Below, piece after piece: positions 12,423 to 48,754 of a stretch of DNA of 48,754 bases. Made by a program: the position numbers and the translations under genes. Positions within the stretch are counted from its first letter, which is position 1. Every line of letters starts with the position of its first letter. The notes under the pieces were generated by a model, which saw only the letters and a list, made by a program, of their open reading frames with translations, did no database searches and was not told the origin of the DNA. The stretch lies in contig PAUP01000106.1 in the NCBI GenBank assembly GCA_002712765.1, forward strand, positions 1 through 48,754, in the 5' to 3' direction. This stretch comes from Cytophagaceae bacterium. GTDB lineage: Bacteria; Bacteroidota; Bacteroidia; Flavobacteriales; Flavobacteriaceae.

Positions 12423-12424
12423 CC

Positions 12425-14763: not shown

Positions 14764-17700
14764 TTATGCGTCTTGTGTATTTCTTACTATTGCGTGGTAG
14801 AACACATTTGGTTTGGTTCCTACACTCTCTAATAAGTGATACATTCTATCATTTTCTGCGAGTTTCGCCACTTCACTGTCTTTGTCATTGACATCTCCAA
14901 ACACCATAGCACCATTGGTACAAGCGTTAGAACAAGCCGTAGCAAACTCTCCATCTTTAATAACTCTACCTTCTCTTTTGGCATCGAGTATGGTTTTTTG
15001 TGTCATTTGAATACACATAGAACACTTCTCAATAACTCCACGAGAACGTACGGTTACATCTGGGTTGAGTACCATACGACCAAGGTCATTGTTCATGTGG
15101 TAATCAAACTCGTCATTCCCGTTGTATAAGAACCAGTTAAAACGTCTTACTTTATAAGGACAGTTGTTTGCACAATAACGCGTACCTACACAGCGGTTGT
15201 ACGCCATATGGTTTTGCCCTTGACGGCTATGCGATGTTGCGGCAACTGGACAAACCGTCTCACAAGGAGCGTGGTTACAGTGCTGACACATCACTGGCTG
15301 GAAGGCTACCTGAGGATTCTCGGCAGGATCTTCCATTTCACCAAATCCACCCAGAGAACCGTTGTCTCCAGATAAACCGCTGAAATCGTTTTTCTTAGTA
15401 TCATCAAGCTCGAAGGTATCTTCAGAAGAGTAGTATCTATCGATACGCAACCAGTGCATATCACGACTACGACGTACTTCCGATTTTCCAACTACAGGTA
15501 TGTTGTTTTCTGAGTGACATGCAATCACACAAGCACCACATCCTGTACAAGCATTCATATCGATAGAAAGATTAAAGTGATGTCCTATTGAACGATCAAA
15601 AGAATCCCACAAATCAACTTCAGGAGAAGTCACTTCGTATTCGATATGGTTTTTGGTCACTTCTGGAACTGGGTTCCAAACGTGCTTATCTCTAGTGTTA
15701 AACACCTCAAGGGTAGTTTCTCTTACGATATCGCCACGTCCCATCAAGGTATTGTGCAATTGCACCAACGCAAATTCGTGTACATCGCTATTGGCCTTCT
15801 CTACGCTTACACCACCTTGAGTGGTCATAAAGTTTTGCATTAGCGGGAATGCGTTTACCCCCGTCTGCATTTCTTCCTGAAGTGCAGCTGTTTTACCATA
15901 CCCTAAAGCCAACCCTACAGTCCCTCTAGCTTGTCCTGGTTGTACCATAACTGGAACAATTACAGTATCACCGTTGGCATTGGTCACTTTGGCGTAGTGG
16001 CCATTAAGACCTCCATTAGCATCGTGACGCGCTTCTGTAAAGAAGGTACTACGGTCAAACCACAACCCTAAGTCTTTGGCATCGGCCTCACTCATGGTAA
16101 GGTAGTTATCCCAAGTAGCTCTAGTGATTGGATCTGGCATCTCTTGCAACCAAGGGTTGTTTGCCTGAGATCCATCTCCCATTGAGATTTTAGTATATAA
16201 GGTCAATTCAAAACCGCCTCCTTGTACTGCCGTAGTCATTCCCGCGTCAGCAGAGATTGAAGTATCAGATGATGTGGTGGCCGCTTTCGCGAAAGCGCTC
16301 GTCATCACAACACCGTCTTGTACGGCTTTATTAAAAGAAGTCACCCCTGCATCGCGCATGGTCGTTTTTAGATAATCGTAATACGACTGATCGTTACCCA
16401 TCCAAGCCAATAAACTGTCTTGGAATTGACGCGTATCAAACAAAGGACGAATAGTAGGCTGCATTAAGCTTACCTCGCCTTGCTTAATTTGTACATCTCC
16501 CCAAGCCTCAAGATAGTGTGGCGTTGGAGCTACATGTGTTGTCTTTTCGGCAGTTTCGTCTACTTTCATAGAACAAGCCACAGACACTTCTACTTTTTCT
16601 AAGCCTGCCGCAAATTGCGCTGCGTTAGGCATACTGTATACTGGATTGACACCAGCCATGATCAATACATCAACACGACCAGCATTCATATCTGATACCA
16701 ACTGCATGAGCTTGCGCGCATCTGCAGAGCGTGTTAAGCGAGGTGCCTCGGCATCCATCACTACACTGTTGGCATTCATATTTAATACCGAAAGTTGTGA
16801 CTGCATATCCTGCACTCCTGTCACAACTACACCTTTACTTCCTGCTTTTGCTAAGGCTTGTTTGGCCATAGCTACTGCTGCTTTTACATTGTCTGGCAAA
16901 CCACTGGTAGAACCACCAGCAAGAGCCGCCACTACCTTAGCCTGATCAGAAGGCTTGGTAGGCACACGCTTATCGGCTTTGGCACCAGAGAGTGTCATAT
17001 TAGCCTCAAACTGAATGTGCTTAGACATTTTTCCTTTGGTTGGGATACGACCTTTAGAATAACCCGTGTCGTAACCTCCACCTTGCCAATCACCTAAGAA
17101 ATCGGCACCTACAGATACGATTACTTCTGCTTTTGAGAAGTCGTAATCTGCCATGGCACGCATCCCGTACTTGGCCTCAAAGGCATCAAGGGCGGCATAT
17201 TCTCCAACAGCGTCATAAGTGACGTGTGAAGCATTTGGGAATTTGGCTGTAAATTCTTCAACTAGTTTATCGGTGGTAGGACTGGCAAAAGTCTGAGTCA
17301 ATAAGACTGTACGTTTCCCGCTATTAAGCGCAGCAGTCACACCAGCATCAATATCACTCCAAGCTACAGGCGCTCCTCCAGCTGTAGGACCTTGAGCGCG
17401 TTTGGTATCATACATCGAGAGCACCGAAGCCTGTACACGTGCATTTGCACCATAACCCGCTTTGGCCATATCATTATTCTCAATTTTGATAGGACGACCT
17501 TCTCTAGTCTTAACCAATACACTGGCAAAATCAAAACCATCGGCCATAGTAGTTGCATAGTAATCTGCAACCCCAGGAACGATTTGTTCTGGCTGTACTA
17601 CGTAAGGAATCGATTTTTTAACCGGTCCTTCACAAGCTGCCAAAGAAGCAGCTGCCGTAGAGAATCCAACATACTTTAAGAAATCACGACGTGAGGTTTG

Positions 17701-17841
17701 AGAAGCTTCCAAAGAAGTCTTATCTCCCAAAAACTCGTCGGTTGGGATTTCTTCTACAAACTCATTCTGACTTAGCGTTTGACTCAAAGGAGTTCCTTCG
17801 AGCTCATCGACGCTTTTCCAGTATTTCTTGTTTGATGACAT
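14764..17841 (-). CDS. actB: Alternative complex III iron-sulfur subunit ActB
   Basis: 1025 residues. The N-terminus carries a twin-arginine signal (TSRRDFLKYVGF, Arg51-52) followed by a lipobox-like SLAAC, so it is probably a Tat-exported lipoprotein. The large middle part (about residues 75-720) resembles molybdopterin oxidoreductases; ActB proteins of characterised complexes bind no molybdenum. The C-terminal part is a ferredoxin-like domain with four cysteine sets: CTGCGACVIACHSE, CQHCNHAPCETVCP, CVGTRYCANNCPYK, and CSMCIQM with CSNACTNGA. These would bind the clusters that carry electrons from ActC to the heme subunit ActA. A perfect copy of the GCTTTCGCGAAAGC palindrome encodes AFAKA in the middle region. 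Confidence 0.95.
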   Translation of the reverse strand: MSSNKKYWKSVDELEGTPLSQTLSQNEFVEEIPTDEFLGDKTSLEASQTSRRDFLKYVGFSTAAASLAACEGPVKKSIPYVVQPEQIVPGVADYYATTMADGFDFASVLVKTREGRPIKIENNDMAKAGYGANARVQASVLSMYDTKRAQGPTAGGAPVAWSDIDAGVTAALNSGKRTVLLTQTFASPTTDKLVEEFTAKFPNASHVTYDAVGEYAALDAFEAKYGMRAMADYDFSKAEVIVSVGADFLGDWQGGGYDTGYSKGRIPTKGKMSKHIQFEANMTLSGAKADKRVPTKPSDQAKVVAALAGGSTSGLPDNVKAAVAMAKQALAKAGSKGVVVTGVQDMQSQLSVLNMNANSVVMDAEAPRLTRSADARKLMQLVSDMNAGRVDVLIMAGVNPVYSMPNAAQFAAGLEKVEVSVACSMKVDETAEKTTHVAPTPHYLEAWGDVQIKQGEVSLMQPTIRPLFDTRQFQDSLLAWMGNDQSYYDYLKTTMRDAGVTSFNKAVQDGVVMTSAFAKAATTSSDTSISADAGMTTAVQGGGFELTLYTKISMGDGSQANNPWLQEMPDPITRATWDNYLTMSEADAKDLGLWFDRSTFFTEARHDANGGLNGHYAKVTNANGDTVIVPVMVQPGQARGTVGLALGYGKTAALQEEMQTGVNAFPLMQNFMTTQGGVSVEKANSDVHEFALVQLHNTLMGRGDIVRETTLEVFNTRDKHVWNPVPEVTKNHIEYEVTSPEVDLWDSFDRSIGHHFNLSIDMNACTGCGACVIACHSENNIPVVGKSEVRRSRDMHWLRIDRYYSSEDTFELDDTKKNDFSGLSGDNGSLGGFGEMEDPAENPQVAFQPVMCQHCNHAPCETVCPVAATSHSRQGQNHMAYNRCVGTRYCANNCPYKVRRFNWFLYNGNDEFDYHMNNDLGRMVLNPDVTVRSRGVIEKCSMCIQMTQKTILDAKREGRVIKDGEFATACSNACTNGAMVFGDVNDKDSEVAKLAENDRMYHLLESVGTKPNVFYHAIVRNTQDA
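16283..16296. repeat. Palindrome GCTTTCGCGAAAGC, copy 1
   Basis: Perfect; extends to 16 bp with outer C/G. Inside actB, read as AFAKA. Confidence 0.95.
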
Positions 17842-17902
17842 AAACTTAGTTGTTATTATTTATGGTGATTTGTAACAAACAAATCAAAACTTAAATACAT
17901 TA

Positions 17903-19195: not shown

Positions 19196-19287
19196 AATTT
19201 GTATTGAATTAGCTTCAAACTTTTGGCGCGATATGATCTTGTCAAAACTGTTAACAAGACGTTAATCGCACACCTCAAAATTGAATG

Positions 19288-19307
19288 CAAAAATAAGACT
19301 TAGAACT
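19288..19307 (-). promoter_or_regulatory. Promoter of act-cox operon with operator-like AGTTCTAA
   Basis: On the minus strand TATTTTTG (19288-19295) fits the -7 consensus TAnnTTTG. AGTTCTAA (19300-19307) stands 4 nt upstream of it. No clear -33 TTG is present, which suggests dependence on an activator, or weak basal activity. It lies about 93 nt upstream of the actA ATG. Confidence 0.5.
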
Positions 19308-19348
19308 CGTTTTACCTTGCTCCTAAAAGCGCTTGTATCTAATTTATA

Positions 19349-19400: not shown

Positions 19401-19417
19401 TCAAAAATACACCAGAA

Positions 19418-19807
19418 ATGAAGTATATGCCACGTTTTAACCGTTTTTTTTTACTGGTTTTTAGCTTGTTTTCTTTTGCTTTCGCGAAAGCGCAAAATGG
19501 CACCACCACGGTGATTCAAAACCCTAAAATTGAGCAGCTTATTGCGCTCAAAGCAGACATGAGCATAGAGGGCGAACTCGCTGATCGATACAAGATCCAA
19601 ATCTTTTCTGGAAATTTAAACAGTGCCCAAGTGGCGCTAAAAAAGTTTCTTAATAAAGTAGGTTTATGGCGTGGTAAAATCACCTACGAAACGCCTAATT
19701 ATAAGGTGTGGGTTGGGAATTTTAGAAACCGATTGGAGGCAGATCGCGCACTTATCGCGGTTAAAAAGGAATTTCCGAGCGCCTTTATTTTTAAACCGGA
19801 ACGATAA
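19418..19807 (+). CDS. Exported SPOR-domain protein
   Basis: 129 residues. A signal peptide (hydrophobic FFLLVFSLFSFAFA) is followed by a short linker and a SPOR domain covering about residues 55-128 (DRYKIQIFSGNLNSAQ, VWVGNFRNRLEADRAL). SPOR domains bind denuded glycan strands of septal peptidoglycan, so the protein is probably periplasmic and linked to cell-wall remodelling or division. A perfect GCTTTCGCGAAAGC palindrome encodes the AFAKA at the expected signal-peptidase cleavage region. It is divergent from actA and shares the control region with it. Confidence 0.85.
   Translation: MKYMPRFNRFFLLVFSLFSFAFAKAQNGTTTVIQNPKIEQLIALKADMSIEGELADRYKIQIFSGNLNSAQVALKKFLNKVGLWRGKITYETPNYKVWVGNFRNRLEADRALIAVKKEFPSAFIFKPER
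19478..19491. repeat. Palindrome GCTTTCGCGAAAGC, copy 2
   Basis: Perfect. Inside the SPOR gene, read as AFAKA at the signal-peptide end. Confidence 0.95.
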
Positions 19808-19855
19808 ACAAACAAAAGACCAAAAGGAGCTACTCTCATCCAATAATTAGGTCAA

Positions 19856-25434: not shown

Positions 25435-26274
25435 ATGATTAAAAAAATACTCGTTCCTACAGATTTTTCAGATCAGGCAGAAAATGCGCTCCGAGTAGCA
25501 GCAGATCTCGCGCGCAAACACAATAGCGAAATCAACTTGCTTCATATGTTAGAACTTCCTATGGAATTGGTAGATGGAGCCTATGGTGGTTCTAAAAGCG
25601 ATCTGCCTGAAGCCCTGTTTTTTATGAAACTAGCGCACCAAAAATTTGAGACTATGATGAGTGCACCTTTTCTGGACGGCATCACGGTGCACGAGACCGC
25701 AGAGTTTGACGGTGCTTTTGACGGCATTATGGATTATGCCAAAAAATACGAGGCCGATCTCATAGTGATGGGATCCCATGGCGCAAGTGGTTTGCAGGAG
25801 TTTTTTATAGGCTCCAATACAGAAAAAGTGGTGCGCAATTCTGAAATACCTGTACTAGTGATCAAAAAGCGGCATGAATCTTTTGAGATACAAAATTTTA
25901 TTTACGCCCTAGATTTTCAGGCAGAGAATCACAATGCGTTCAAACAAGCTATTGCTTTCGCGAAAGCGAATGAGGTCACACTGCACACGCTGTACGTCAA
26001 TACACCAGGTGATTTTCGAACCACCAAGGAGGTCGAAGAACAAATGGAGGCATTTATGCGCGAGGAGAAAGCGCCCCCAACCAATTACACCCTGAATATA
26101 TACAATGATACCTCTATAGAAAAAGGCATCTTAAATTTTGCCGAAACTATTGGATCAGGGCTGATAGGCATAGGAACCCACGGTCGTAAAGGTCTGGCAC
26201 ATTTTCTAAATGGCTCTCTGAGCGAGGGCTTAGTAAATCACGCACAGCGCCCTGTCATTACCTTCAAAATATAA
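25435..26274 (+). CDS. Tandem universal stress protein (UspA family)
   Basis: 279 residues made of two Usp domains (about 1-148 and 152-279). Both halves keep the ATP-binding pattern G-x2-G-x9-G-(S/T): GSHGASGLQEFFIGSN in the first and [15 protein letters not shown] in the second. Many tandem Usps have lost one site, so two intact motifs suggest that both halves bind nucleotide. It is a cytoplasmic stress-response protein with no defined reaction. A perfect GCTTTCGCGAAAGC copy encodes AFAKA early in domain two. It is monocistronic, with a terminator-like structure directly downstream. Confidence 0.92.
   Translation: MIKKILVPTDFSDQAENALRVAADLARKHNSEINLLHMLELPMELVDGAYGGSKSDLPEALFFMKLAHQKFETMMSAPFLDGITVHETAEFDGAFDGIMDYAKKYEADLIVMGSHGASGLQEFFIGSNTEKVVRNSEIPVLVIKKRHESFEIQNFIYALDFQAENHNAFKQAIAFAKANEVTLHTLYVNTPGDFRTTKEVEEQMEAFMREEKAPPTNYTLNIYNDTSIEKGILNFAETIGSGLIGIGTHGRKGLAHFLNGSLSEGLVNHAQRPVITFKI
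25954..25967. repeat. Palindrome GCTTTCGCGAAAGC, copy 3
   Basis: Perfect. Inside the tandem Usp gene, read as AFAKA. Confidence 0.95.
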
Positions 26275-28531: not shown

Positions 28532-31500
28532 ATGACAGCATTCAACTTTGCAAAGTGGAATAAAATTATGGGGTGGGCCGCTTTTACGGTAGCCTTGATT
28601 ACTTTTTCGTTAACGGTAGAACCTACAGCTAGTTTCTGGGATGCCGGCGAATATATCTCTACATCTTCCAAACTAGAAATTGGTCACCCGCCAGGAGCCC
28701 CGCTCTATCAAATCATGGGTGCTTTCTTTTCAAATTTTGCTCCCGACAACACTTATATCGCCTTGGCAGTAAACTATATGTCCTGTTTGGCCAGTGCTTT
28801 TGCGATTTTGTTTATGTATTGGTCTTTGACCTATCTCATTCGCAAGTTGCTGGTCAATAACAAGGAAGTTGTTTCTGCAGCCAAAGAAAAAGCCATATTA
28901 GCCGCTGCCTTTGTAGGTGCTACAGCTTTCACTTTTACCGATAGTTTTTGGTTTAATGCGGTAGAAGCCGAGGTATATGCTGGAGCTATTTTTATCATGT
29001 CGCTCTTGTTTTATTTGGGCCTGCTCTGGGAACGCGATATGCACAAACCCAGAGGGAATCGCTGGTTGATATTAATCTCATTTGTGGTTGGTCTCTCTTT
29101 TGGAATTCACTTTATGGGCCTATTGACCATCCCAGCGATCGGCTTTTTATATTATTTCAAAAATTACAAAACCATAACGGTTAAAAATTTCATCATTGCC
29201 AATATCGTCGTGGTAGCGGTATTGATGTTCATTTTTAAACTCTTACTACCGTATACACTGTCGTTTTTTGGTTATTTGGAAGTCTTCTTTGTCAATAGTA
29301 TGGGCTTGCCTTTTAACAGTGGTACTATTATCGCCGCCTTGATTTTGATTGCCGCATTTTACTACGGGATTACGCTTTCGCGAAAGCGCAATTACCCCAT
29401 AGCCAACACCCTACTATTGTGTGTCTTGTATATTTTTATCGGATTCTCTTCTTGGATGATGCTTCCCATTAGAGCAAATGCAGGAACGACTATTAATGAA
29501 AATAACCCTAATAATGCCAGAGAGCTTCTCGCCTATTACAATCGAGAGCAATACCCAGAAACACATCTTTTTTACGGCCCTCAATTTACCTCAGATTATG
29601 CTGGTTTGGATCCAGATAATCCCTATAAGGACGACAAAAAGAAATACGAAAAAGACGAAAAATTAGGCAAATATGTGATTGTAAATGACTGGGAAGGGAC
29701 AGGGCAAAATCTTGACGATGCTCAAAAAACCTTTTTGCCTAGAATGTGGAGTCCAGAAAACAACGTGAATTATCTCTCCTATACAGGGCCCTTACCCTTT
29801 ACCATCAAGCCCGAATATGCCACCAATCAAGATTTACAAACGGCCGTGGCGCAGTTTAGACAGGATCTGGCTCAAAACAAGGTAGGACTAGAGGGCTATA
29901 ATAAGTTTATGAAGCAATTTGGTCAGGAATACCTCAATGTAGAACCTCCCTCCTTTGCCGATAACATGAGCTTTATGTTCAATTATCAGTTTAGCTATAT
30001 GTACTGGCGCTATTTTGCTTGGAATTTTATAGGGCGTCAAAACGACATTCAGGGCATGGGTGACGATTTTAACGGGAATTGGCTGTCTGGTATTGACGTT
30101 ATTGACAGTCTCTTTTTGGGAAGTCAGGAAAATTTGCCTACCGATGCACTCAAAAACAAAGCGCGTAATACCTATTTCTTTTTGCCGCTGCTGTTAGGGC
30201 TTATTGGTTTTATTTTCCAGCTCTCTAAAGACAAGCGCAATTTCTGGGTCTTGTTGGTATTCTTTTTATTTACAGGGCTCGCACTAAAGATTTACCTCAA
30301 CGAAAGACCTTTTGAACCTCGAGAACGCGATTATGCATTGGTAGGTTCATTTTATGTCTTTGCCATTTGGATAGGTTTTGGGGTCTATGCACTTTACGAG
30401 ACCTTTAGTGATTTTATGTCACGCAAGATTGCACTGCCTTTGGTAACTACCTTGTGTTTGCTCGCTGGGCCTATATTGCTGGCCTCAGAAAATTGGGATG
30501 ATCACGATCGCTCTGGCAGAAAGACTGCACTAGCTATGGCGCGAAAATACTTAGATTCGGTAGACGAAAACGCCATACTCTTTACCATAGGTGACAATGA
30601 CACCTTTGCCTTGTGGTACCTTCAAGAAATTGAAGAATATCGCACCGATGTTAGGGTGATTAATACGAGTCTATTTAACACAGATTGGTATATCGATCAA
30701 ATGCGAAGACCCGCCTATGAAAGTAAAGGTATACCCGGGCAATTAACACATGACAAATACAAAACAGGTACACGTGATGCCATATGGTATGTACCTGTAA
30801 GTGATTCGACAGATATTAGTCAATGGCTCAATTGGGTTGCCAGTGACGACCCACGTACCAAAGAAGAATTGCGCAACGGCCAGCTGGTCAACACCTTCCC
30901 TAGTAAAAACATCCGAATTCCTGTTGACAAGGAAAATGTGCTTACCAATGGGATAGTGCCTGCAAAGGATAGTGACAAAATTGTACCCCATATTGACATT
31001 ACTTTAAAGGGGGATATACTCTATAAAAACAGGCTCATCATGCTGGATGTGGTAGCCAATAACAATTGGGAACGCCCCATTTATTTTACAGGGGGAAGTT
31101 TTGGAGATGATGACTATTTATGGATGAAGGACTTTTTGCAACTTGACGGGGTATGCTATAAGTTAATTCCTATTTATACGCCAGTAGATCCTCAAAATCC
31201 TTACGATATGGGTAGGATTGACTCCGAAAAAATGTACGGTATCGTCAAAAACTGGTATTGGGGTGGAAGCGGTGATCCCGATATCTATCACGATAGAGAA
31301 ACGCGTACCAACGGTATTACCTACAGAGGCAATATGGCACGTCTGGTAGAGCAACTGCTCAATGATGGGGAACCCGAAAAAGCCAAAGAAATTTTAGATC
31401 TGGCTATGGAAAAGATGCCTGTTGACATCTTTGAATTCTACACTCTTGTAGAGCCTTATGTTTCTGGTTATTATGAAATTGGAGAAAAAGAACGTGCCCG

Positions 31501-31810
31501 AGAAATTTGGAACGATCTGGCCAAAAAATATCAAGAACAACTTACCTATTTGAGCGGGCTTTCTAAAGAGCGTCAATATAAAAATTACGAAGCCATCTAT
31601 AGTAATATGGAGAAGTATCGCAGTTTACTTGACCTATTGGTGATGAATCGCGAAGAAGAATTGGTACGAGAGAAGGCAGAAGAGTTTAATAGTTACATCC
31701 GTCTATTCCCAGAACTCTATGGCGAGGACGAAGCCGAAGAGCCAGAACGTCTAGAAACAGTTGCCAAACCAACTATAACGATACCTGCAGACTCTCAAGA
31801 TATTCAATAA
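28532..31810 (+). CDS. DUF2723 membrane glycosyltransferase (GT117/TMEM260-like)
   Basis: 1092 residues. About a dozen membrane helices fill the N-terminal 600 or so residues; the rest is a soluble domain ending in helical, TPR-like repeats (about 960-1070). The first extracytoplasmic loop contains FWDAGEYISTSSKLEIGHPPG, the acidic catalytic-loop signature of DUF2723. Human TMEM260, a DUF2723 protein, is a protein O-mannosyltransferase, so a GT-C enzyme using a polyprenyl-phosphate sugar donor to modify exported proteins or glycans is a reasonable inference. A perfect GCTTTCGCGAAAGC copy encodes LSRK in a cytoplasmic loop. Its stop overlaps the start of the deacetylase gene (TAATG). Confidence 0.9.
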   Translation: MTAFNFAKWNKIMGWAAFTVALITFSLTVEPTASFWDAGEYISTSSKLEIGHPPGAPLYQIMGAFFSNFAPDNTYIALAVNYMSCLASAFAILFMYWSLTYLIRKLLVNNKEVVSAAKEKAILAAAFVGATAFTFTDSFWFNAVEAEVYAGAIFIMSLLFYLGLLWERDMHKPRGNRWLILISFVVGLSFGIHFMGLLTIPAIGFLYYFKNYKTITVKNFIIANIVVVAVLMFIFKLLLPYTLSFFGYLEVFFVNSMGLPFNSGTIIAALILIAAFYYGITLSRKRNYPIANTLLLCVLYIFIGFSSWMMLPIRANAGTTINENNPNNARELLAYYNREQYPETHLFYGPQFTSDYAGLDPDNPYKDDKKKYEKDEKLGKYVIVNDWEGTGQNLDDAQKTFLPRMWSPENNVNYLSYTGPLPFTIKPEYATNQDLQTAVAQFRQDLAQNKVGLEGYNKFMKQFGQEYLNVEPPSFADNMSFMFNYQFSYMYWRYFAWNFIGRQNDIQGMGDDFNGNWLSGIDVIDSLFLGSQENLPTDALKNKARNTYFFLPLLLGLIGFIFQLSKDKRNFWVLLVFFLFTGLALKIYLNERPFEPRERDYALVGSFYVFAIWIGFGVYALYETFSDFMSRKIALPLVTTLCLLAGPILLASENWDDHDRSGRKTALAMARKYLDSVDENAILFTIGDNDTFALWYLQEIEEYRTDVRVINTSLFNTDWYIDQMRRPAYESKGIPGQLTHDKYKTGTRDAIWYVPVSDSTDISQWLNWVASDDPRTKEELRNGQLVNTFPSKNIRIPVDKENVLTNGIVPAKDSDKIVPHIDITLKGDILYKNRLIMLDVVANNNWERPIYFTGGSFGDDDYLWMKDFLQLDGVCYKLIPIYTPVDPQNPYDMGRIDSEKMYGIVKNWYWGGSGDPDIYHDRETRTNGITYRGNMARLVEQLLNDGEPEKAKEILDLAMEKMPVDIFEFYTLVEPYVSGYYEIGEKERAREIWNDLAKKYQEQLTYLSGLSKERQYKNYEAIYSNMEKYRSLLDLLVMNREEELVREKAEEFNSYIRLFPELYGEDEAEEPERLETVAKPTITIPADSQDIQ
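29374..29387. repeat. Palindrome GCTTTCGCGAAAGC, copy 4
   Basis: Perfect; extends to 16 bp. Inside the DUF2723 gene, read as LSRK (shifted frame). Confidence 0.95.
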
Positions 31811-34210: not shown

Positions 34211-35158
34211 ATGCTAGAGGCTAAACAAGTTGGGTATACCATTAGTAAGCGCTTTGAGTTAAGAGATATCAATTTTTCTATCCCAAAAGGAGCGAGTATC
34301 GCCATTATTGGGGAGAGTGGTTGTGGCAAGACCTCTCTTTTAAAATTGCTCTACGGCTTATACGATGCAAATAAGGGTAGTATCTACTGGAAGGACCAAA
34401 AGATCACAGGCCCCAAAGATCATCTTATCCCCGGGATGCCTTTTATGAAATACCTCTCCCAGGATTTTGATTTGATGCCTTTTACCTCGGTGGTAGAAAA
34501 TGTGCAAAAACACTTATCCCGATTAGAACCTGAGCACAGTGCTCAACGTACGGCAGAGCTACTGGAGGTGGTAGAGATGACCGCTTTCGCGAAAGCGCAT
34601 GTCAAAACACTCTCTGGGGGCCAAAAACAACGAGTAGCCTTAGCACAAACACTGGCCAAAGCCCCAGAAGTATTATTGCTAGATGAACCCTTCTCGCATA
34701 TCGATAATTTTAGAAAAAATAAGTTGAGACGTCGCTTGTTTGACTATCTAAAAAAAGCCGAAATCACCTGTTTGGTCGCTACCCACGACAGTACAGATGT
34801 CTTGGCCTATACCGACGAAACCATCGTGATGCGCCACGGCCAAATTTGTGCTCATGCCCCTACGCCACGCTTGTATCAAAACCCTCCAAACTATTATATA
34901 GCCTCTCTTTTTGGAGATGTTAATGAGCTCCCCGCTCATTGGTTTGACACCTCGGCTTCACCTGAGCAACAGGTACTGATCTACCCACATCAAATTGGTG
35001 TAAGCACGACTGGCATCGCTGCTCAGGTCGTAGGTAGCTACTTTATGGGAAGTCAGTATTTGATAGAAGCCAGCTATAAGGAAAAAACTATTTTCTTTGA
35101 AAGTGAGCGAAATTTTGCAGCTCAAGAGGCTGTTATTTTGGGGCGTATTAAAAATTGA
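34211..35158 (+). CDS. ABC transporter ATP-binding protein (orphan, TOBE-like tail)
   Basis: 315 residues. Walker A GESGCGKTS, Q-loop LSQDFDLMPF, signature LSGGQKQRVALAQ, Walker B VLLLDEPFSHID and the switch His in ATHDSTD are all intact, so it should hydrolyse ATP. The C-terminal 85 residues resemble a TOBE-like regulatory domain, as in PotA/FbpC/ModC importers of small ions or polyamines. No permease or binding protein is nearby; partners must be elsewhere, or the protein has another role. A perfect GCTTTCGCGAAAGC copy encodes AFAKA just before the signature motif. It converges with the Gre-like gene, with only 18 nt between them and no clear terminator. Confidence 0.88.
   Translation: MLEAKQVGYTISKRFELRDINFSIPKGASIAIIGESGCGKTSLLKLLYGLYDANKGSIYWKDQKITGPKDHLIPGMPFMKYLSQDFDLMPFTSVVENVQKHLSRLEPEHSAQRTAELLEVVEMTAFAKAHVKTLSGGQKQRVALAQTLAKAPEVLLLDEPFSHIDNFRKNKLRRRLFDYLKKAEITCLVATHDSTDVLAYTDETIVMRHGQICAHAPTPRLYQNPPNYYIASLFGDVNELPAHWFDTSASPEQQVLIYPHQIGVSTTGIAAQVVGSYFMGSQYLIEASYKEKTIFFESERNFAAQEAVILGRIKN
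34583..34596. repeat. Palindrome GCTTTCGCGAAAGC, copy 5
   Basis: Perfect; extends to 16 bp. Inside the ABC ATPase gene, read as AFAKA. Confidence 0.95.
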
Positions 35159-35176: not shown

Positions 35177-35638
35177 TTAATAAATCGCCTCAATAGTAAA
35201 TGTGCTTTCGCGAAAAACTATAGACGCTCCTTCGCTTTTACCCAACAACAGTTGTCCTATAGGCGAGGCAACTGCAATGGCGTAGTATATCTGATTATCG
35301 ATCTTTATCTCACCTGCTGGGATAGCTAAGTAATAGTGCGCCTCTGTGGTTTCTATGACACAACCCAGATGTGCAGGTCCCTTTGCCAGTGCTGAAGACA
35401 ATCGATTGCTGATATTTTCTAGTTTTTCAATTTCGGCCAGTTGATGTCCTGCTTTTTCGCGTTCGAGCTGTAGCATAGCGCGTCCGGTTTCATGTTTATC
35501 TCCAGCCGAGCTCTTCGTCTCTTCTTCTAAAGACTTTGACAGTTGTAAAAGCCGCTCATCTATAGCCTTGCGACGGTTAGCGAGTTGTTTTAAACAGGCT
35601 TCTCTCAATTCAGCTTTACAGCTTTCTCTATCTTTCAT
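35177..35638 (-). CDS. GreA/GreB-like elongation-factor family protein
   Basis: 153 residues. An N-terminal helical hairpin (about 1-75, with an acidic DKHE-containing turn) leads to a C-terminal FKBP-like domain (YYLAIPAGEIKID, ASPIGQLLLGKSEG). This is the Gre architecture: the hairpin enters the polymerase secondary channel and its acidic tip stimulates transcript cleavage. It diverges from classical GreA, which is probably encoded elsewhere, so it may be a paralogue that modulates polymerase. A near-copy of the palindrome encodes VFRES near the C-terminus. It overlaps the FAD oxidoreductase gene by 4 nt. Confidence 0.75.
   Translation of the reverse strand: MKDRESCKAELREACLKQLANRRKAIDERLLQLSKSLEEETKSSAGDKHETGRAMLQLEREKAGHQLAEIEKLENISNRLSSALAKGPAHLGCVIETTEAHYYLAIPAGEIKIDNQIYYAIAVASPIGQLLLGKSEGASIVFRESTFTIEAIY
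35204..35215. repeat. Degenerate palindrome copy (12 of 14 bp)
   Basis: GCTTTCGCGAAA followed by AA. Inside the Gre-like gene, read as VFRES. It lies only about 600 bp from perfect copy 5. Confidence 0.6.
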
Positions 35639-37324: not shown

Positions 37325-37339
37325 TTGCTACAGCGCCCT

Positions 37340-38035
37340 ATGAACCCAAATATAAAAGTGATTATCCCGGCATACAATGAGCAAGATTCTATAGGTCATG
37401 TCATTGCAGATATCCCAAATAGTGTGGCCGAGGTTATCGTAGTGAGCAATGCCTCCACCGATCAAACCGCTCAGGTGGCGGCCAGTGCAGGAGCAACAGT
37501 GCTCACCGAAATGCGAAAAGGCTATGGTTATGCCTGTCTTAAGGGAATGCAACACATCGCTGCACAAACAGAAACTACAGATATAGTGGTATTCTTAGAT
37601 GGTGATTATTCAGACTATCCTGAGCAATTAACAGAAATTGTACGCCCCATATTAGAACAGGATGTCGATATGGTTATTGGAGCTAGAGATGCACGCTTTC
37701 GCGAAAGCGGATCTATGACCAAACCACAAATTTTTGGAAACTGGCTGGCTACAACCCTCATGCGACTGTTTTTTAATGCCAAATTTACCGACCTAGGGCC
37801 TTTTAGAGCGATAAAATATAAAAGCCTGCTGGCGCTAGGCATGGAAGATAAAACCTATGGCTGGACTGTAGAAATGCAGTTAAAAGTGCTTAAAAAAGGA
37901 ATGCGTTACACAGAAATCCCAGTCAAGTACCGCAACCGCATTGGGGTGTCGAAGGTTTCTGGCACCCTCAAAGGCGCTATATTTGCAGGAGTTAAAATAT
38001 TGGGGTGGATTTTTAAATACAGTTTTAAAAAATGA
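37340..38035 (+). CDS. GT2 glycosyltransferase (dolichyl/undecaprenyl-phosphate sugar synthase type)
   Basis: 231 residues from the ATG at 37340 (MNPNIKVIIPAYNEQ); a TTG five codons upstream is not needed. The GT-A fold is visible: VIIPAYNEQDSI, then FLDGDYSDYPEQL with the DxD metal motif, then GARDARFRESG. The size and the VKYRNRIGVSKVSG tail resemble dolichyl-phosphate mannose synthase-like enzymes that load a sugar onto a polyprenyl phosphate. A perfect palindrome copy encodes RFRES, the only copy in that frame. It is coupled to the next gene by a 4-nt ATGA overlap. Confidence 0.88.
   Translation: MNPNIKVIIPAYNEQDSIGHVIADIPNSVAEVIVVSNASTDQTAQVAASAGATVLTEMRKGYGYACLKGMQHIAAQTETTDIVVFLDGDYSDYPEQLTEIVRPILEQDVDMVIGARDARFRESGSMTKPQIFGNWLATTLMRLFFNAKFTDLGPFRAIKYKSLLALGMEDKTYGWTVEMQLKVLKKGMRYTEIPVKYRNRIGVSKVSGTLKGAIFAGVKILGWIFKYSFKK
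37695..37708. repeat. Palindrome GCTTTCGCGAAAGC, copy 6
   Basis: Perfect; extends to 16 bp. Inside the first GT2 gene, read as RFRES (third frame). Confidence 0.95.
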
Positions 38036-39522: not shown

Positions 39523-40922
39523 TTCCTGCCTTTTTGAAATACCAAAAAATACCTTTACTCTTTGGCCTATTACTGTCGCTGTTCTATCTCAGTTTTGCCT
39601 ATGATCTTGATCGAGGCGATTTTACCAAACTCATTTTACTTTACACCGCTTGTTTTCTCATTAGTTACAAACTCATTGAGATAGGAAAGTCCAATTTTTT
39701 ATTGCTAGGAGGTATAGCGATTGGGCTGCGATTGTTGTTTCTACCGGCCATACCTAATCTCTCACAAGATTTTTATCGATTTATCTGGGATGGACGTATG
39801 TTATTACAAGGGTTCAATCCCTATTTGACGACTCCAGAAAGCTTTATGATTGCCCAAGAGTACGACATAGTCCATCAATCTCGGACCTTAGTGCAAGGCA
39901 TGGGCGCCTTAAATGCTAGTAATTATACCAATTACCCTCCTATAAATCAGTTTCTATTTGGCATCGCCGCTTTTCTATCAGGAAAGAGCATTACCACGAG
40001 TGTGGTGGTTTTAAGAGTGATAATTATACTGGCAGATATTGGCATACTGATTTATGGTCGCAAGCTATTGCAAAAATTGAAGTTGCCAGAGTATCAAGTT
40101 TTTTGGTATGTACTCAATCCCTTTATCATTATAGAAATGACGGGCAATCTTCATTTCGAATCTGTGATGTTATTCTTTTTGGTAATGGCCTTATACCTAT
40201 TGCTATGTCGCAGGTGGATATGGAGTAGTATTTTCTTTGCGTTTTCAATTTCGGTCAAATTGATTCCTTTGATGCTGTTGCCGTTGGCGTTTCAATTTTT
40301 ACTGTCTGACCGCTCTAGCGTTTTTAGGTATGGCCAGCTATTGCATAGACCGCAACTAATAATAAAACGCATACCCCGACTCATTGCATTTTACGGCCTC
40401 ACCTTAGGCGTGGTGGTAGTGAGTTTCTTTCCATTTTTGGAAGGTCAATTTTACGACAATTTTGGAGCTTCGGTGGCTTTGTGGTTTCAAAAATTTGAAT
40501 TTAATGCCAGTATCTACTACATCATAAGGTGGATTGGATTTCAAACCATAGGCTGGAATATTATTGCCGATGTGGGTAAAATTCTTCCTCTTATCGTGAC
40601 CGGAATCATCTTAGTTATTTCGTTTTTCCGAAAAAATAGCGATGCGCTAGCTATGATAAGCGCGATGTTATTGAGCATATCGGTGTATTTTTTATTGTCT
40701 ACTACCGTTCATCCCTGGTATATAGCCACCCCCTTACTTTTAGGCATTTTTACCCGATATCGATTTCCAATGCTTTGGAGTCTTATGGTTTTTTTGAGTT
40801 ATTCGGCCTACGGCAACGACGGGTTTAAGGAACACTTCGGCCTTATTGCCCTTGAATACCTAGTGGTAATTGGCTTGGCAATCTATGAAATGAGTTATCC
40901 TAAACGACGTCCTATTTTTTAG
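39519..40922 (+). CDS. GT-C polyprenyl-phosphate-dependent mannosyltransferase-like membrane protein
   Basis: 467 residues starting with GTG, overlapping the previous stop (GTGA). About 10-12 membrane helices are predicted. The first large loop has PNLSQDFYRFIWDGRMLLQGFNPY, the acidic catalytic-loop pattern of GT-C enzymes of the DUF2029/mannosyltransferase type, which use a lipid-linked sugar. Together with the upstream polyprenyl-phosphate sugar synthase it could form a donor-maker and donor-user pair. Its last 11 nt overlap the converging ArnT-like gene. Confidence 0.82.
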   Translation: MIPAFLKYQKIPLLFGLLLSLFYLSFAYDLDRGDFTKLILLYTACFLISYKLIEIGKSNFLLLGGIAIGLRLLFLPAIPNLSQDFYRFIWDGRMLLQGFNPYLTTPESFMIAQEYDIVHQSRTLVQGMGALNASNYTNYPPINQFLFGIAAFLSGKSITTSVVVLRVIIILADIGILIYGRKLLQKLKLPEYQVFWYVLNPFIIIEMTGNLHFESVMLFFLVMALYLLLCRRWIWSSIFFAFSISVKLIPLMLLPLAFQFLLSDRSSVFRYGQLLHRPQLIIKRIPRLIAFYGLTLGVVVVSFFPFLEGQFYDNFGASVALWFQKFEFNASIYYIIRWIGFQTIGWNIIADVGKILPLIVTGIILVISFFRKNSDALAMISAMLLSISVYFLLSTTVHPWYIATPLLLGIFTRYRFPMLWSLMVFLSYSAYGNDGFKEHFGLIALEYLVVIGLAIYEMSYPKRRPIF

Positions 40923-42537
40923 TGATGTGATAGACTAAGGCAGTTTTGCGTTTGCGATAATTGCGATCTGTTTTGTCTACTAGATTGATATCTATAGTAT
41001 CAATGAGCGTCATTTTAAAATTTGCTTTCTCAGGCACTAATTTTGTTTGACAAGCAGTGCAGCTCAAGAGCAAGGCAGGAATTTCAAGAGCACCGCTAGT
41101 GATGTCTGTACTATCTACGCGAGGGATTTTATCACCATAAGCCCACACCAATTCTGGACTGGTAAAACGATAAGCATACACTGGCAGTTGTGGCGCTGTC
41201 TCAAGCGCTCGAAAGGCGTTTGTTTTTGTAGTAGTAGTTTGGGTTGTATCCAGCACACTCAACACGCTAAGCGTCCCAAAAACAGTACCTACTACCGTGG
41301 TAAGAAATAGCGCGTATATACGTTTTTGCTTGAGCCATACAAACATCGCTATCCCACAGCAAGTGGTGATCAACACGCTTAAAATTCCCAAAATATAGAG
41401 CACGGTATCCTCAAACACAATCATATAGATACCCCCTAAGAAAGTGAAGACAAACACTGAGGCTATCAATCCAAAATTGAGATAGACTGCTAGACGCTCT
41501 TTTAACTTATCTATCCCTTTAAAATGCTTAATGAGATACGTGATATAAAAACCAATATTAATCGCAAGCGGCACTAATACGGGCATGAGATATCTCGATT
41601 TCTTTTCGGGAATGATTGATAGTAATACAACAGCTAGCAGTGTCCACCAGAAACTCAGGAGATAGCCCTTTTTATGGGTCACTCTTTTTATGAGATAAGG
41701 GTATACTAGACTAATAAAGGCGGGTAGCACCCATAAACCACTTTGAATAAAAAAACTCCAATAATAGTAAAATGGCCGTACATTATAACTCGTCCAATTA
41801 GCAGTTTCCTTTTGAGCTATTTTGGCAAAAGTTTCTGGATCTTCAACGCGTACATAAAAATACCAACTAAAGCCTAAGAGGAGCCCTGCAATTAATACGG
41901 GTAGCAACCATGACCAATGCTGGACAAAGGATCTATGAACAATCCCAAAATAAGCGATCAAAAAAGGCAGTAATAGCACATATACAGATACTGGCCCTTT
42001 GCTAAGTACCGAACAGCCTATACATAATATAGCGGCAAGATAACTACTCCAGGATGGGCTACTGAACTGAGTTGCCTTAACGATAAAATAAATGGCCGTA
42101 AGCATAAATCCGTGCGCATAAATATCCCAAGGCGCTTCAAAAATGATCAGAATAACATAAAGCGAGGTCACCGTGATCAGGCCATTAATGAGCCCCTGTC
42201 TTTTAGAAAGGGATAGCTTTCGCGAAAGCAAATAGGACATCACTCCTGTAAGCATCACCATCAGTACCGCGGGTAAGCGCAATCCCCAAAGACTATCGAT
42301 ACCAAAAATTAAAGCGCTAAGTGCAGTAAGCCAGGTAGGCAACGGTGGTTTTTGATATCGTGGCTCTCCGTTCATCGTGGTTAAGATCCAATGATTATCG
42401 GTGAGCATCTCTCGTGCGCTAATAAAATTACGAGCCTCCATTATAGTAACTTCCAATACATCCAAAAAAGGTAACAACATCACCCCTACCACAAGTAGGA
42501 TAGTAAGTATGGGGCGTTTTTCGAATAAGGCTAACAC
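40912..42537 (-). CDS. ArnT/PMT-like glycosyltransferase (GT83/GT39 family)
   Basis: 541 residues, GTG start. About 12 helices are followed by a C-terminal periplasmic domain. The first loop, MEARNFISAREMLTDNHW followed by PRYQKPPLPTWL, is the catalytic and donor-binding signature of PMT_2/ArnT enzymes that transfer a sugar from undecaprenyl phosphate to lipid A or proteins. It is downstream of a LAB_N protein and a GT2 of ArnC type, so the trio can make a lipid-linked sugar, move it across the membrane and attach it. A perfect palindrome copy encodes LSRK. Confidence 0.9.
   Translation of the reverse strand: MLALFEKRPILTILLVVGVMLLPFLDVLEVTIMEARNFISAREMLTDNHWILTTMNGEPRYQKPPLPTWLTALSALIFGIDSLWGLRLPAVLMVMLTGVMSYLLSRKLSLSKRQGLINGLITVTSLYVILIIFEAPWDIYAHGFMLTAIYFIVKATQFSSPSWSSYLAAILCIGCSVLSKGPVSVYVLLLPFLIAYFGIVHRSFVQHWSWLLPVLIAGLLLGFSWYFYVRVEDPETFAKIAQKETANWTSYNVRPFYYYWSFFIQSGLWVLPAFISLVYPYLIKRVTHKKGYLLSFWWTLLAVVLLSIIPEKKSRYLMPVLVPLAINIGFYITYLIKHFKGIDKLKERLAVYLNFGLIASVFVFTFLGGIYMIVFEDTVLYILGILSVLITTCCGIAMFVWLKQKRIYALFLTTVVGTVFGTLSVLSVLDTTQTTTTKTNAFRALETAPQLPVYAYRFTSPELVWAYGDKIPRVDSTDITSGALEIPALLLSCTACQTKLVPEKANFKMTLIDTIDINLVDKTDRNYRKRKTALVYHITKK
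42216..42229. repeat. Palindrome GCTTTCGCGAAAGC, copy 7
   Basis: Perfect 14 bp; the flanking bases do not pair. Inside the ArnT-like gene, read as LSRK. Confidence 0.95.
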
Positions 42538-43860: not shown

Positions 43861-43899
43861 ACGCTTTGACTTATAGCTAACTTGGCGCTTAGGTTGGAG

Positions 43900-44748: not shown

Positions 44749-44765
44749 GATTTCTTATTTGGGCA

Positions 44766-44795
44766 CAAAGGTAATCTTAATCAATGACCTACAAA
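44766..44795 (-). promoter_or_regulatory. Promoter of the pseudouridine synthase-like gene
   Basis: TTTG (complement of 44792-44795), an 18-nt spacer and TACCTTTG (44766-44773) on the minus strand form a full consensus, with transcription starting about 10 nt before the ATG. Confidence 0.72.
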
Positions 44796-44844
44796 ATACT
44801 TATCTAGCTAGTATTTGACCCTCTTCGTGTATGATGGGTTTGCC

Positions 44845-45825
44845 TTAGCTATTCTTATCAAAATTTTGCTCCTTAAATGAAACTGTAGACTGTCTTGTGC
44901 GGTCAACGTGCAATTGTGTCACATCAGGTCTAGCGTAATGCCCTACCGCATCAAAATTTTGACGTTCTTCATAGACCCGCTTAACATCTAATTGGGCATA
45001 AATATTCCCTTCGGTGGTGGTATCTGGCGGTAGGATAAACTCACCGTCAGGACCCGCAATGCAAGACCCTCCATTTGATAAAATAGCTGGAGCCTTTTCT
45101 AAAATATTATCCAGATGTGGGGTGTCGGCTGGAAAATCCTCCCGTCTCATCTTGCTCGACACCGATAAGACATAGCTGCGTCCCTCTCTCGCCATAAATC
45201 GCGTAATATCCTTGGTATTGTAATCGCTACCTGGCCAAACTGCAATATGAACATTTTCGCCTTGAGCATATAGCGCGGCCCTGGGCAATGGCATCCAATT
45301 TTCCCAACAATTCAAACCCCCCAAGGTAAAATCCTTTAAAGAATGTGTACGTAAACCGTGACCATCGCCTGGAGACCAAGTAAGTCGCTCGTCATAAGTG
45401 GGTTGTAATTTTCTATGCACAGACTGTATCACACCTTCTCGATCGATATACACTAGTGATGCGTACAAACTATGACCCCCGCGATCTATCGGGCGTTCAA
45501 TTATACCTAGATAAGTAGCGATCTTATGCTTTCGCGAAAGCGCACACAACTCCTTCAAATCACCGTCTTGGATCACCACAGCATTACGCGCATAATGAGC
45601 GTGAATTTCTTTAACCACTTTTGAATTCCAGGCGGCTCCATTGGTAAGAGAAAGCCAATACGGATACCCAGGCACTAAACCTTCACCAAAGACGATAAGC
45701 TCTGCACCTTGCTTAGCCGCCTGTTCTATGGCATGTTTGACCTTGGCCAATGTTTTTTGTTTATCGAGCCAAACTGGGGCTATCTGAGCCAAAGCCACGT
45801 TTAACATATGAGAAGGATGATTCAT
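44845..45825 (-). CDS. Nitrilase (carbon-nitrogen hydrolase superfamily)
   Basis: 326 residues. The Glu-Lys-Cys triad is in place: Glu48 in FGEGLVPGYPYW, Lys139 in VHRKLQPTYDE and Cys173 in LNCWENWMPL. CWEN and the HRKL-P-ER pattern are those of true nitrilases (branch 1), which turn nitriles into carboxylic acids and ammonia, rather than amidases. It is a cytoplasmic enzyme with no obvious partner genes (no aldoxime dehydratase or other Nit-cluster genes), so the natural nitrile is unknown. A perfect palindrome copy encodes LSRK at residues 96-99. Confidence 0.92.
   Translation of the reverse strand: MNHPSHMLNVALAQIAPVWLDKQKTLAKVKHAIEQAAKQGAELIVFGEGLVPGYPYWLSLTNGAAWNSKVVKEIHAHYARNAVVIQDGDLKELCALSRKHKIATYLGIIERPIDRGGHSLYASLVYIDREGVIQSVHRKLQPTYDERLTWSPGDGHGLRTHSLKDFTLGGLNCWENWMPLPRAALYAQGENVHIAVWPGSDYNTKDITRFMAREGRSYVLSVSSKMRREDFPADTPHLDNILEKAPAILSNGGSCIAGPDGEFILPPDTTTEGNIYAQLDVKRVYEERQNFDAVGHYARPDVTQLHVDRTRQSTVSFKEQNFDKNS
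45528..45541. repeat. Palindrome GCTTTCGCGAAAGC, copy 8
   Basis: Perfect. Inside the nitrilase gene, read as LSRK. Confidence 0.95.
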
Positions 45826-45842
45826 AAGCTGTATTTACCCTT

Positions 45843-45871
45843 CTAAAGTACAAACTCAAGCATACACCAAA
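45843..45871 (-). promoter_or_regulatory. Promoter of the nitrilase gene
   Basis: TTTG (complement of 45868-45871), a 17-nt spacer and TACTTTAG (45843-45850), one base off the -7 consensus, on the minus strand. Confidence 0.45.
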
Positions 45872-45884
45872 AAGCAGTCGCCTG

Positions 45885-46796: not shown

Positions 46797-46828
46797 ACCT
46801 TGCCACTTTTAAAGTGCCCCCAACACCT

Positions 46829-47758: not shown

Positions 47759-47764
47759 AAAAGC

Positions 47765-47772
47765 AAAATTAG
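47765..47772 (-). promoter_or_regulatory. -7 box of the mevalonate kinase-like gene
   Basis: TAATTTTG on the minus strand fits TAnnTTTG and lies 6 nt before the ATG, which implies a leaderless or almost leaderless mRNA. No clear -33 is seen. Confidence 0.45.
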
Positions 47773-47872
47773 GGTATTTTCAGTAGATTCTGACAGTCGG
47801 TGTTCTAATTTAGGGACTTATTAACTAAAATCACTTAGAAAAGTAATAAAATAAGGTCTCTTCACGAAGATA

Positions 47873-48754
47873 CTAGGCTAATTGTTTGGCTCCTAGCCCA
47901 ACCTCATCATTAATATATTCGCCATTTTTACAAAAAGCGGCTAAGGTATCTGAGACAAAAGTCAGCACCTGCCCCGCTACATTTTTTGGATATAAGAGGT
48001 GCACATTGGCCCCCGCATCTAAGGTAAAACACAGTTTGATACCCGTCTCTTTTCGAAAAGCCCAAATCGCATTAATAATCTCAAGGGTATTGGGTTTCAT
48101 CAAGATAAAATAAGGATGACTGCTCATCATCATCGCATGCAGTGTCAAAGCTTCACTCTCTACCAATGCGATAAAACCGTCAAGATCTCCCGATTTGAGT
48201 ATGTCTGCTAAGGCACTTATATTTTTGGGAGCTTGTTCAAAGCGCGCTTTCGCGAAAGCGTGCCCATTCATAAGCCCGTGACCTACAGTACTACTCACTT
48301 GTTTTTCTCCTTTATCAACCAGTAAAATGGTGTCTTGAAAATTGGTAAAAACCTCATGTACTTCAAAAGGATAGACGCTGCCTAACAATTGATCGCTATT
48401 AGGAATGTCTGTATGCTGCCCCCATACCACTAGAGGTCCTAAAATACTTCTACACGCGCTACCTGAGCCCAATCGCGCCAAAAAGGAAGCCTTGTCATAA
48501 AAGTAATCATCGGTCATCTCTGGACGCATTTCTCGCTCTATAGACAACACACATAGGGCTAAGGCACTCATCCCAGAGGCAGAGCTCGCAATCCCTGAAC
48601 TATGCGGAAACGAATTGGAGGTTTCTATGGTATACGAATATTGCCCTACATATGGACAATACGGCAAGATACGTTCAAAAAACTGAGCGACCTTGGGCTT
48701 AAAATCTGGAACCGCTACCCCGTCGAGAAGGATATCAAATTCAATTTCTTTACC
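47873..48754 (-). CDS. mvaD: Diphosphomevalonate decarboxylase (5' end cut by window)
   Basis: The frame stays open to the right edge (294 visible codons), so the start lies beyond the window; an internal TTG at 48667 is not the true start. The GHMP-type loop NSFPHSSGIASSASGMSAL, the FWVWGQHTD-like segment LVVWGQHTD and the C-terminal FTLDAGANVHLLYP are the signatures of ATP-dependent decarboxylation of mevalonate 5-diphosphate to isopentenyl diphosphate. A perfect palindrome copy encodes AFAKA. It is first in the visible isoprenoid set, 114 bp upstream of the GHMP kinase. Confidence 0.93.
   Translation of the reverse strand, partial: GKEIEFDILLDGVAVPDFKPKVAQFFERILPYCPYVGQYSYTIETSNSFPHSSGIASSASGMSALALCVLSIEREMRPEMTDDYFYDKASFLARLGSGSACRSILGPLVVWGQHTDIPNSDQLLGSVYPFEVHEVFTNFQDTILLVDKGEKQVSSTVGHGLMNGHAFAKARFEQAPKNISALADILKSGDLDGFIALVESEALTLHAMMMSSHPYFILMKPNTLEIINAIWAFRKETGIKLCFTLDAGANVHLLYPKNVAGQVLTFVSDTLAAFCKNGEYINDEVGLGAKQLA
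48246..48259. repeat. Palindrome GCTTTCGCGAAAGC, copy 9
   Basis: Perfect; extends to 16 bp. Inside mvaD, read as AFAKA. Confidence 0.95.

Follow-up and report, generated by a model that had tools for sequence, protein, structure and literature searches.

The stretch of DNA analysed here, hereafter the window, comprises positions 1 to 48,754 of contig PAUP01000106.1 (assembly GCA_002712765.1, a Cytophagaceae bacterium placed in the Flavobacteriaceae) and harbors an iterated 14-bp palindrome, GCTTTCGCGAAAGC (the word), which is its own reverse complement. The window holds nine perfect copies as well as four near-copies (Table 1), all at the places listed in the original prediction, which had been made from the sequence by itself; the distances of 2.7–6.5 kb between perfect copies follow from these coordinates, and the reading frames are likewise as claimed, the word being translated as AFAKA five times, LSRK three times and RFRES once. 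Allowing up to three mismatches, the window contains 17 matches against 2.08 expected, and the maximum among 100 shuffles is 6. The prediction had also placed the word inside genes; this is true of all nine perfect copies in the window, which lie in open frames, but not in general, with 121 of 262 copies being intergenic in 920 kb of a related genome. The word is real and lineage-specific, is selected at the DNA level and avoids itself. Beyond what had been predicted, its consensus is longer, its sites are spaced so as to avoid one another, it is confined to three of the genera sampled and it occurs in phages.

That the word is a genome-wide signal, as had been proposed, is evident from the counts. 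The assembly to which the window belongs (2.77 Mb in 107 contigs, 78% complete) contains 369 copies, far above chance and not confined to the window, and none of the reversed word. All 18 genomes of the same genus (g1) contain 369–905 copies each and no copy of the reversed control, at densities of one perfect copy per 3.6–7.5 kb. Among 210 palindromes of equal half-site composition searched in 643 kb of Dokdonia-type DNA, the word has 158 matches and the other 209 have none. An origin by chance or through an accident of codon usage is ruled out by the genome counts, the lack of reversed words, the 209 empty control palindromes and the base conservation described below.

Across 397 genomes of the family (237 genera), six have more than 100 copies, 74 have 1–19 and 317 have none. 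The six are the window's own genome, G206 (857 copies), three members of genus g11 (578, 609, and 664) and G190 of genus g191 (408); outside the window's genus, g11 and g191 are the two word-rich genera among the 237 sampled (408–664 copies). Of 395 genomes drawn across the phylum, 354 come from outside the family; among these 354, eight have one copy each and the others none. Of the low counts, G309 has 6, and G076 and G287 (genus g77) have 16 and 19, none of which fall in 140 kb sampled from the latter two; a variant word built on the same core was considered for g77 and rejected, the core being absent from these 140 kb. A search with the ActB-like protein of the window (14764–17841, minus strand), which may omit records very close to the window, kept 80 loci. 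The best seven are all named Dokdonia (76–80% identity), and the remaining 73 carry labels of other Flavobacteriaceae or Flavobacteriales, apart from two named Algicola. The word occurs 2–7 times in each of the seven Dokdonia loci and in none of the 73 others. Dokdonia being the nearest named relatives of the window's genome, g1 probably corresponds to this genus. In a tree of ActB (103 rows, one gene, quick method) the window lies inside an 11-row Dokdonia clade (support 100), and both G190 and the word-poor G144 join Dokdonia in one group (support 99). Genus g11 is placed beside this group with Patiriisocius, but the support is weak (84), so that one gain of the word and two gains are indistinguishable.

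The anatomy of the site was resolved in G397, a single-contig genome of the genus (3,293,944 bp) sampled in detail over 920 kb (320–1240 kb). This sample contains 262 perfect copies, 23 copies with one mismatch and 39 with two. The core, TTTCGCGAAA, occurs 302 times, flanked by GC on both sides in 262 cases, on one side in 40 and on neither side in none; other self-complementary flanks are found in 0 of 302 cores. The 14 imperfect cores listed for G190 likewise retain GC on one side. As the flanks show no paired changes, the two halves would seem to be recognised by base identity in duplex DNA rather than as an RNA stem. At 94 intergenic sites of G397 the bases outward of the word are also constrained, with C at -1 in 92%, A at -2 in 77%, T at -3 in 85% and T again at the next position in 64%; C at -1 and T at -3 lead in each of five sample sets, g11 and G190 among them. 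The consensus reaches beyond 14 bp to a palindrome of ~22 bp, about TTACGCTTTCGCGAAAGCGTAA.

Comparison of related loci supports the proposal that the DNA word, not the peptide, is the target of selection, the word being read in three frames. At ~75% DNA identity, each of the seven Dokdonia loci has a perfect word at site 16283 (blastn, a comparison that leaves five of the window sites uncovered). In protein alignments, which gave 24 comparisons from 6 of the 9 window genes, 17 words are intact. Where the peptide is conserved, all 14 bases are kept in 17 of 19 comparisons, which are mutually non-independent and from which the three LSRK sites were left out, against 2777 of 27036 control windows (10.3%). 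Counted by site and locus, the word stands at the same place in 23 of 29 Dokdonia cases (some with L012, nearly identical to G397), in 5 of 10 in G190 (four distinct places), in 2 of 14 in g11 and, in genera lacking the word, in 1 of 189, this one within a word cluster of G337. Site 29374 has the word in the homologues of G397 and of g11 (L155) as well. From the ratio of 262 perfect to 23 one-mismatch copies, with 42 possible one-mismatch neighbours, a published formula (PMC2397512) gives a selection strength 2Nes of ~6, compared with about 4 for the neisserial DNA uptake sequence (DUS) in the same paper. The larger two-mismatch class implies that the simple selection model behind this estimate fits incompletely.

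Table 1. Copies of the 14-bp word in the window, with the reading frame and the state of each site in related loci.
Feature	Position	Gene (coordinates, strand) and frame, or altered sequence	Related loci
Perfect word	16283..16296	actB-like gene (14764-17841, -), AFAKA	perfect in 7/7 Dokdonia loci (blastn), 8/9 (protein alignment)
Perfect word	19478..19491	residue 21 of 129-residue open frame (19418-19807, +), AFAKAQ; signal-peptide-like by eye	perfect in 3/3 (blastn), 5/6 (protein alignment)
Perfect word	25954..25967	universal stress protein gene (25435-26274, +), AFAKA	perfect in 2/5 loci (blastn), 2/6 (protein alignment)
Perfect word	29374..29387	TMEM260-like gene (28532-31810, +), LSRK	perfect in 2/2 Dokdonia loci (blastn)
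Perfect word	34583..34596	ABC transporter ATPase gene (34211-35158, +), AFAKA	not retained in the single homologue compared
Perfect word	37695..37708	glycosyltransferase gene (37325-38035, +), RFRES	retained in the single homologue compared
Perfect word	42216..42229	PMT-like gene (40912-42537, -), LSRK	word at the same place in G397 homologue
Perfect word	45528..45541	carbon-nitrogen hydrolase gene (44845-45825, -), LSRK	
Perfect word	48246..48259	open frame 47873-48667 (-), AFAKA	retained in the single homologue compared
Near-copy, 2 mismatches	2733..2746	one outer flank altered (GCTTTCGCGAAATA)	this type is spaced like a site in G397
Near-copy, 1 mismatch	4002..4015	GCTTTCGCGGAAGC	
Near-copy, 1 mismatch	12160..12173	GCTTTCGCGAAATC	perfect in 3 (L009, L010, L014) of 7 Dokdonia loci with spanning alignment (blastn)
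Near-copy, 2 mismatches	35204..35217	one outer flank altered (GCTTTCGCGAAAAA)	perfect word there in G397 homologue

Sites occur both within and between genes, as judged from longest open reading frames rather than annotation. In the 920 kb of G397, 141 sites are in genes and 121 are intergenic, though intergenic DNA makes up 8% of the sequence; the window together with four short loci of the same genome has 2 of 13 sites between genes. By the orientation of the neighbouring genes, the 121 intergenic sites are 29 convergent, 23 divergent and 69 co-directional, so promoters are not favoured, and convergent stretches are enriched (29 sites on 10.3 of 69.9 kb). In G397 genes 100 or more residues long, 138 sites are translated as AFAKA (71), LSRK (37) or FRES (30), and the three frames rule out a common peptide motif as its cause. 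AFAKA followed by Q falls within the first 60 residues at seven sites, about five of which appear signal-peptide-like by eye. Compared with word-less homologues, 151 of 188 comparisons lacking the word are gap-free at the site (many of them for the same few sites), as in TLSRKR in a word-bearing gene and KYTRKK in its word-less homologue, and 37 have gaps, for example in a loop of ActB. Many in-gene sites thus look like products of substitution, and others sit in loops of variable length. In ActB of G190 (L111) the place of the word is taken by GCTTTC-CTGCCTGCCGGCAGGCAAGG-CGCGAG, coding LPAGRQG, which seems to be a different palindrome inserted in frame; the insert of L161 is similar. The sequence CTGCCTGCCGGCAGGCAG occurs twice in 360 kb of G190 and is absent from the 920 kb of G397. 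In the window, an ActB-like molybdopterin/Fe-S protein and COX1 are encoded within one run of minus-strand genes (2656–17841), presumably an alternative complex III and cytochrome oxidase cluster.

The spacing of the sites is far from random. In the 920 kb of G397 the 261 gaps average 3508 bp and follow a gamma distribution of shape 3.08 (Kolmogorov-Smirnov p 2e-15 against an exponential); the contig's initial 100 sites, which reach 377 kb and share 16 members with the larger set, give a shape of 2.4 (p 6e-4). Relative to 300 random placements preserving the coding/intergenic split, gaps below 1 kb are depleted (3.1%; null mean 22%, minimum 16%) and the coefficient of variation of the gaps is reduced (0.63; null mean 0.95, minimum 0.79). 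Near-copies keep their distance too: of 51, 14% have a perfect copy within 1 kb, whereas 54% of 20,000 random points do (p 6e-11). When perfect and near sites are pooled (313 in all), pair density in successive 500-bp bins starts at 0.09, 0.26, 0.56, and 0.79 of the random expectation, which indicates exclusion up to ~1.5 kb, followed by a mild excess (1.1–1.2) at 2–3.5 kb and scatter further out. Small samples from elsewhere show the same direction, with gaps below 1 kb in 1 of 20 for g11 (22% expected), 0 of 11 for G206 (21%) and 1 of 27 for G190 (12%).

Coverage extends along the whole chromosome of G397, where 20 samples contain 2–8 sites per 20 kb. No effect of origin or terminus on density is seen in these samples, and in the 920 kb the density is level (8–15 per 40 kb) where the GC skew flips sign near 680 kb. 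Word-free gaps include one that spans a 13-kb gene and another that spans ATP synthase-like genes (by eye); two more, of ~16.7 kb, lie at 287–321 kb. The largest in the 920 kb holds one open frame of 4343 residues (C1:972646–985677). Mobile elements were considered as a cause of five large gaps and rejected, the largest holding this single gene and another looking like the ATP synthase region, as judged by eye from protein starts. In the same 920 kb, 34-bp contexts recur around two sequences, with up to 13 identical for TCCTGCAGGA and up to 17 for TTATCGATAA; these are probably repeats inside one or a few long genes.

The word also occurs in phages. At least 120 stretches of viral contigs match it, with widely varying GC content, and a longer pattern retains 30 among the matches listed; many of the viral matches are probably due to chance. 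Seventeen phage contigs, selected for having the word, hold at least 52 distinct words in 391 kb (2–5 per contig), a density that rests on this selection. Ten proteins were scanned, and the word-bearing genes among them encode a head maturation protease (L227), a head-protease-like protein (L261) and an ATPase (L219), which we take from its context to be MuB-like; further words fall in genes whose PHROG family is unknown or lacking (L282, L196, L210). The same stretches encode an integrase in L210, a transposase in L250 and a tape-measure protein in L282; because of the integrase and the transposase, at least L210 and L250 look temperate. The homologues L259 and L282, which are 46% identical, both retain the word as GVRFRESE. 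Contig 3300040801_003070, in which one gene looks DnaG-like by eye, may contain host DNA.

In six word-poor genomes (G337, G101, G215, G087, G078, and G012), eight stretches (L136–L143) chosen for their word clusters contain 23 words. Several of these segments are near-identical between genera, including a pair of words 933 bp apart; they are probably a moved element and look like DNA out of a word-rich lineage. Remnants in conserved core operons were considered as the source of the low counts and set aside, the near-identical contexts across genera being more like moved DNA. The word may thus tag DNA that has left these lineages. Further ParB_N proteins of 602–616 residues occur in the word-poor genomes G101, G073, G012, G144, and G309; those of G012 (C18) and G101 (C1) lie ~6–13 kb from a word and are perhaps part of this element.

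We tentatively regard the word as the core of the ~22-bp site of a probably dimeric protein, with chromosome-wide DNA organisation as its likeliest role, a reading whose chances remain somewhat below even. In broader terms, the chance comes close to even, without quite reaching it, that a protein reads a self-avoiding array of up to ~900 near-identical palindromic sites of 14–22 bp, that the array organises or marks the whole chromosome in one clade of Flavobacteriaceae with no role for methylation, and that the coding sequences of proteins and phages have adjusted to it. A nucleoid protein, an uptake signal and a repair or replication mark, all named in the original prediction, are candidate roles. 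We infer a reader protein, its dimeric state and an architectural role from the genome-wide copy number, the confinement to three genera among those sampled, the longer palindromic consensus, conservation at the DNA level, self-avoidance and the site-like behaviour of near-copies. A probably dimeric protein of Dokdonia and the two related genera would read the site on double-stranded DNA; selection would maintain sites at intervals of a few kb (3.5 kb on average in G397), as a nucleoid or architectural protein may need, and a second site closer than ~1–1.5 kb would be disfavoured or useless.

Several results weigh against this proposal. No reader protein emerged from family searches in 19 genomes (8 word-rich, including 4 Dokdonia, and 11 word-poor), none of the single families searched tracking the word, and a long-range period is absent from the pair density of the 313 G397 sites. 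Word-free gaps of 12–19 kb occur, so local absence is tolerated, and the density varies twofold inside the genus and falls to one site per ~8 kb in G190, which argues against a fixed ruler. Copies with two mismatches (39) outnumber those with one (23), an order that would not be expected if a symmetric site simply decayed. Finally, self-avoidance, conservation and the mixed coding and intergenic placement could also stem from a watermark of DNA exchange, which we would rank second to an architectural array of sites.

Such a watermark would be an uptake-type signal that favours DNA of kin in natural transformation and spreads by recombination; one word per fragment would suffice and a new word would gain little near an existing one, hence the self-avoidance. 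Though doubtful, this is the rival that survives best. The exclusion range of ~1–1.5 kb is similar to the conversion fragments of 1.1–1.7 kb that the spacing of neisserial DUS matches (PMC2397512), and significant even spacing of uptake sequences is attributed to Karlin in another paper (PMC1939737). Natural transformation is known in Riemerella, and ComEC is present in 19 of 19 genomes, although this includes all 11 word-poor ones and so does not discriminate. Phage genes bear the word, at least in contigs chosen for it, yet neisserial DUS are reported missing from recently acquired genes (PMC2397512), and one-mismatch copies are few, with 262 perfect to 23 as opposed to 1892 to 815 in Neisseria meningitidis Z2491 (PMC2397512).

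It is less probable still that the word is a self-mark which shields resident DNA from a nuclease or defence system, in the manner of Chi but palindromic, and which phages gain to pass as self. The words in phage genes, their retention between the 46%-identical homologues and an even coverage with a site every few kb would suit such a mark. However, the phage contigs were selected for the word, and the site, 14–22 bp long and symmetric, is unlike Chi: known Chi sites are short, oriented, non-palindromic and read on one strand, whereas the word equals its own reverse complement.

A palindrome of HIP1 type (highly iterated palindrome 1), made or kept by DNA methylation and repair bias, is improbable. 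The centre of the palindrome, TCGCGA, is CG-rich, and in cyanobacteria HIP1 and its alternates accompany cognate methyltransferases (PMC4390886). The original prediction had listed a methylation or restriction link among the possible roles, but none of four methyltransferase families is common to all eight word-rich genomes: PF01555 is found in two (none of the four Dokdonia), PF00145 in five (missing from G411, G242, and G190), PF02086 in five (missing from G242, G010, and G190) and PF02384 in seven (missing from G190). Outside the word, TCGCGA occurs 54 times in the 920 kb of G397, near the Markov expectation of 61.6. Avoidance of this hexamer as by restriction, at which base composition hinted (117.8 expected), was rejected on the Markov estimate. 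Moreover, local repair bias does not predict the repulsion of sites over 1 kb.

There is very little to recommend a mobile palindromic element with target immunity, resembling repetitive extragenic palindromic (REP) sequences and their REP-associated tyrosine transposases (RAYT): insertion with immunity would account for the enrichment between genes and the repulsion, and Y1 transposases occur in four of the eight word-rich genomes (G206, G242, G394, and G010), but they are missing from G397, G404, G411, and G190, and many in-gene sites are gap-free and substitution-like (151 of 188; TLSRKR against KYTRKK). Equally remote is an RNA hairpin or bidirectional terminator, which the enrichment in convergent stretches would fit but against which stand the 141 of 262 sites in genes, the absence of compensatory flanks (0 of 302 cores) and the divergent (23) and co-directional (69) sites.

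Among known systems, the sites of parS and Noc (Noc-binding site, NBS), matS and the SlmA sites share with the word a palindromic sequence of 12–16 bp read by a dimer, a dimeric reader being our supposition for the word. The TTTC...GAAA arms of the word resemble parS and NBS, but are 2 bp apart rather than 4 as in parS, and copies of the word are several to many times more numerous than the sites of any of these systems. Unlike parS/Noc sites, the word is accompanied by a single ParB_N (PF02195) match in each of the eight word-rich genomes, against 1–3 in the 11 word-poor ones, which leaves no extra paralogue for Noc; unlike Noc, SlmA or MatP sites, it neither prefers nor avoids any chromosomal domain in the G397 samples. 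REP sequences and bacterial interspersed mosaic elements (BIME) with RAYT are similarly palindromic, dispersed and enriched between genes, whereas half of the word sites are coding, many apparently by substitution, and the Y1 transposase is missing from half of the word-rich genomes. The DUS of Neisseriaceae and the uptake signal sequence (USS) of Pasteurellaceae share with the word hundreds of dispersed copies in coding and intergenic DNA, strong conservation and spacing on the kb scale; the word differs in being a perfect palindrome, in having fewer one-mismatch copies and in occurring in phage genes, as seen in contigs chosen for it. Of neisserial DUS, 34–42% lie in genes (PMC2397512).

The closest likeness is to HIP1, and the comparison made in the original prediction is apt, both being iterated palindromes far above expectation and dispersed genome-wide. 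HIP1 and the alternate HIPs are short and GC-rich, present in hundreds of copies within and between genes, lineage-specific and present or absent between relatives, as is the word. HIP1 differs in length (8–10 bp, against 14–22 bp here), in sequence and in phylum, and the word in turn has an inner hexamer that is not enriched alone, strong short-range self-avoidance and a tolerance such that one intact outer flank is enough. The word matches neither HIP1 (GCGATCGC) nor the alternates GGGATCCC, GGCGCC, GCsGC, rCCGGy, and TCGATCGA (PMC4390886). HIP1 itself occurs 16 times in 360 kb of G190 and is missing from the top six listed for G397 when 8-base palindromes are ranked by enrichment. In a search of open-licence papers no paper on the word was found; the core TTTCGCGAAA occurs there, the 12- and 14-mer do not. 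Because no tested methyltransferase family is common to the word-rich genomes, the word is HIP1-like in behaviour but is not classed as a member. In cyanobacteria, HIP1 has been argued to serve chromosome-wide DNA organisation, and Xu, Lawrence and Durand in 2018 reportedly dealt with its selection and periodicity and argued for conserved sites; to our knowledge its function is still open. For the word, statistics indicate selection on the spacing of an iterated palindrome and not just on its copy number. It is a second, longer and cleaner case than HIP1, in which related word-rich and word-poor genera, some of these marine bacteria being culturable, make the question of function testable.

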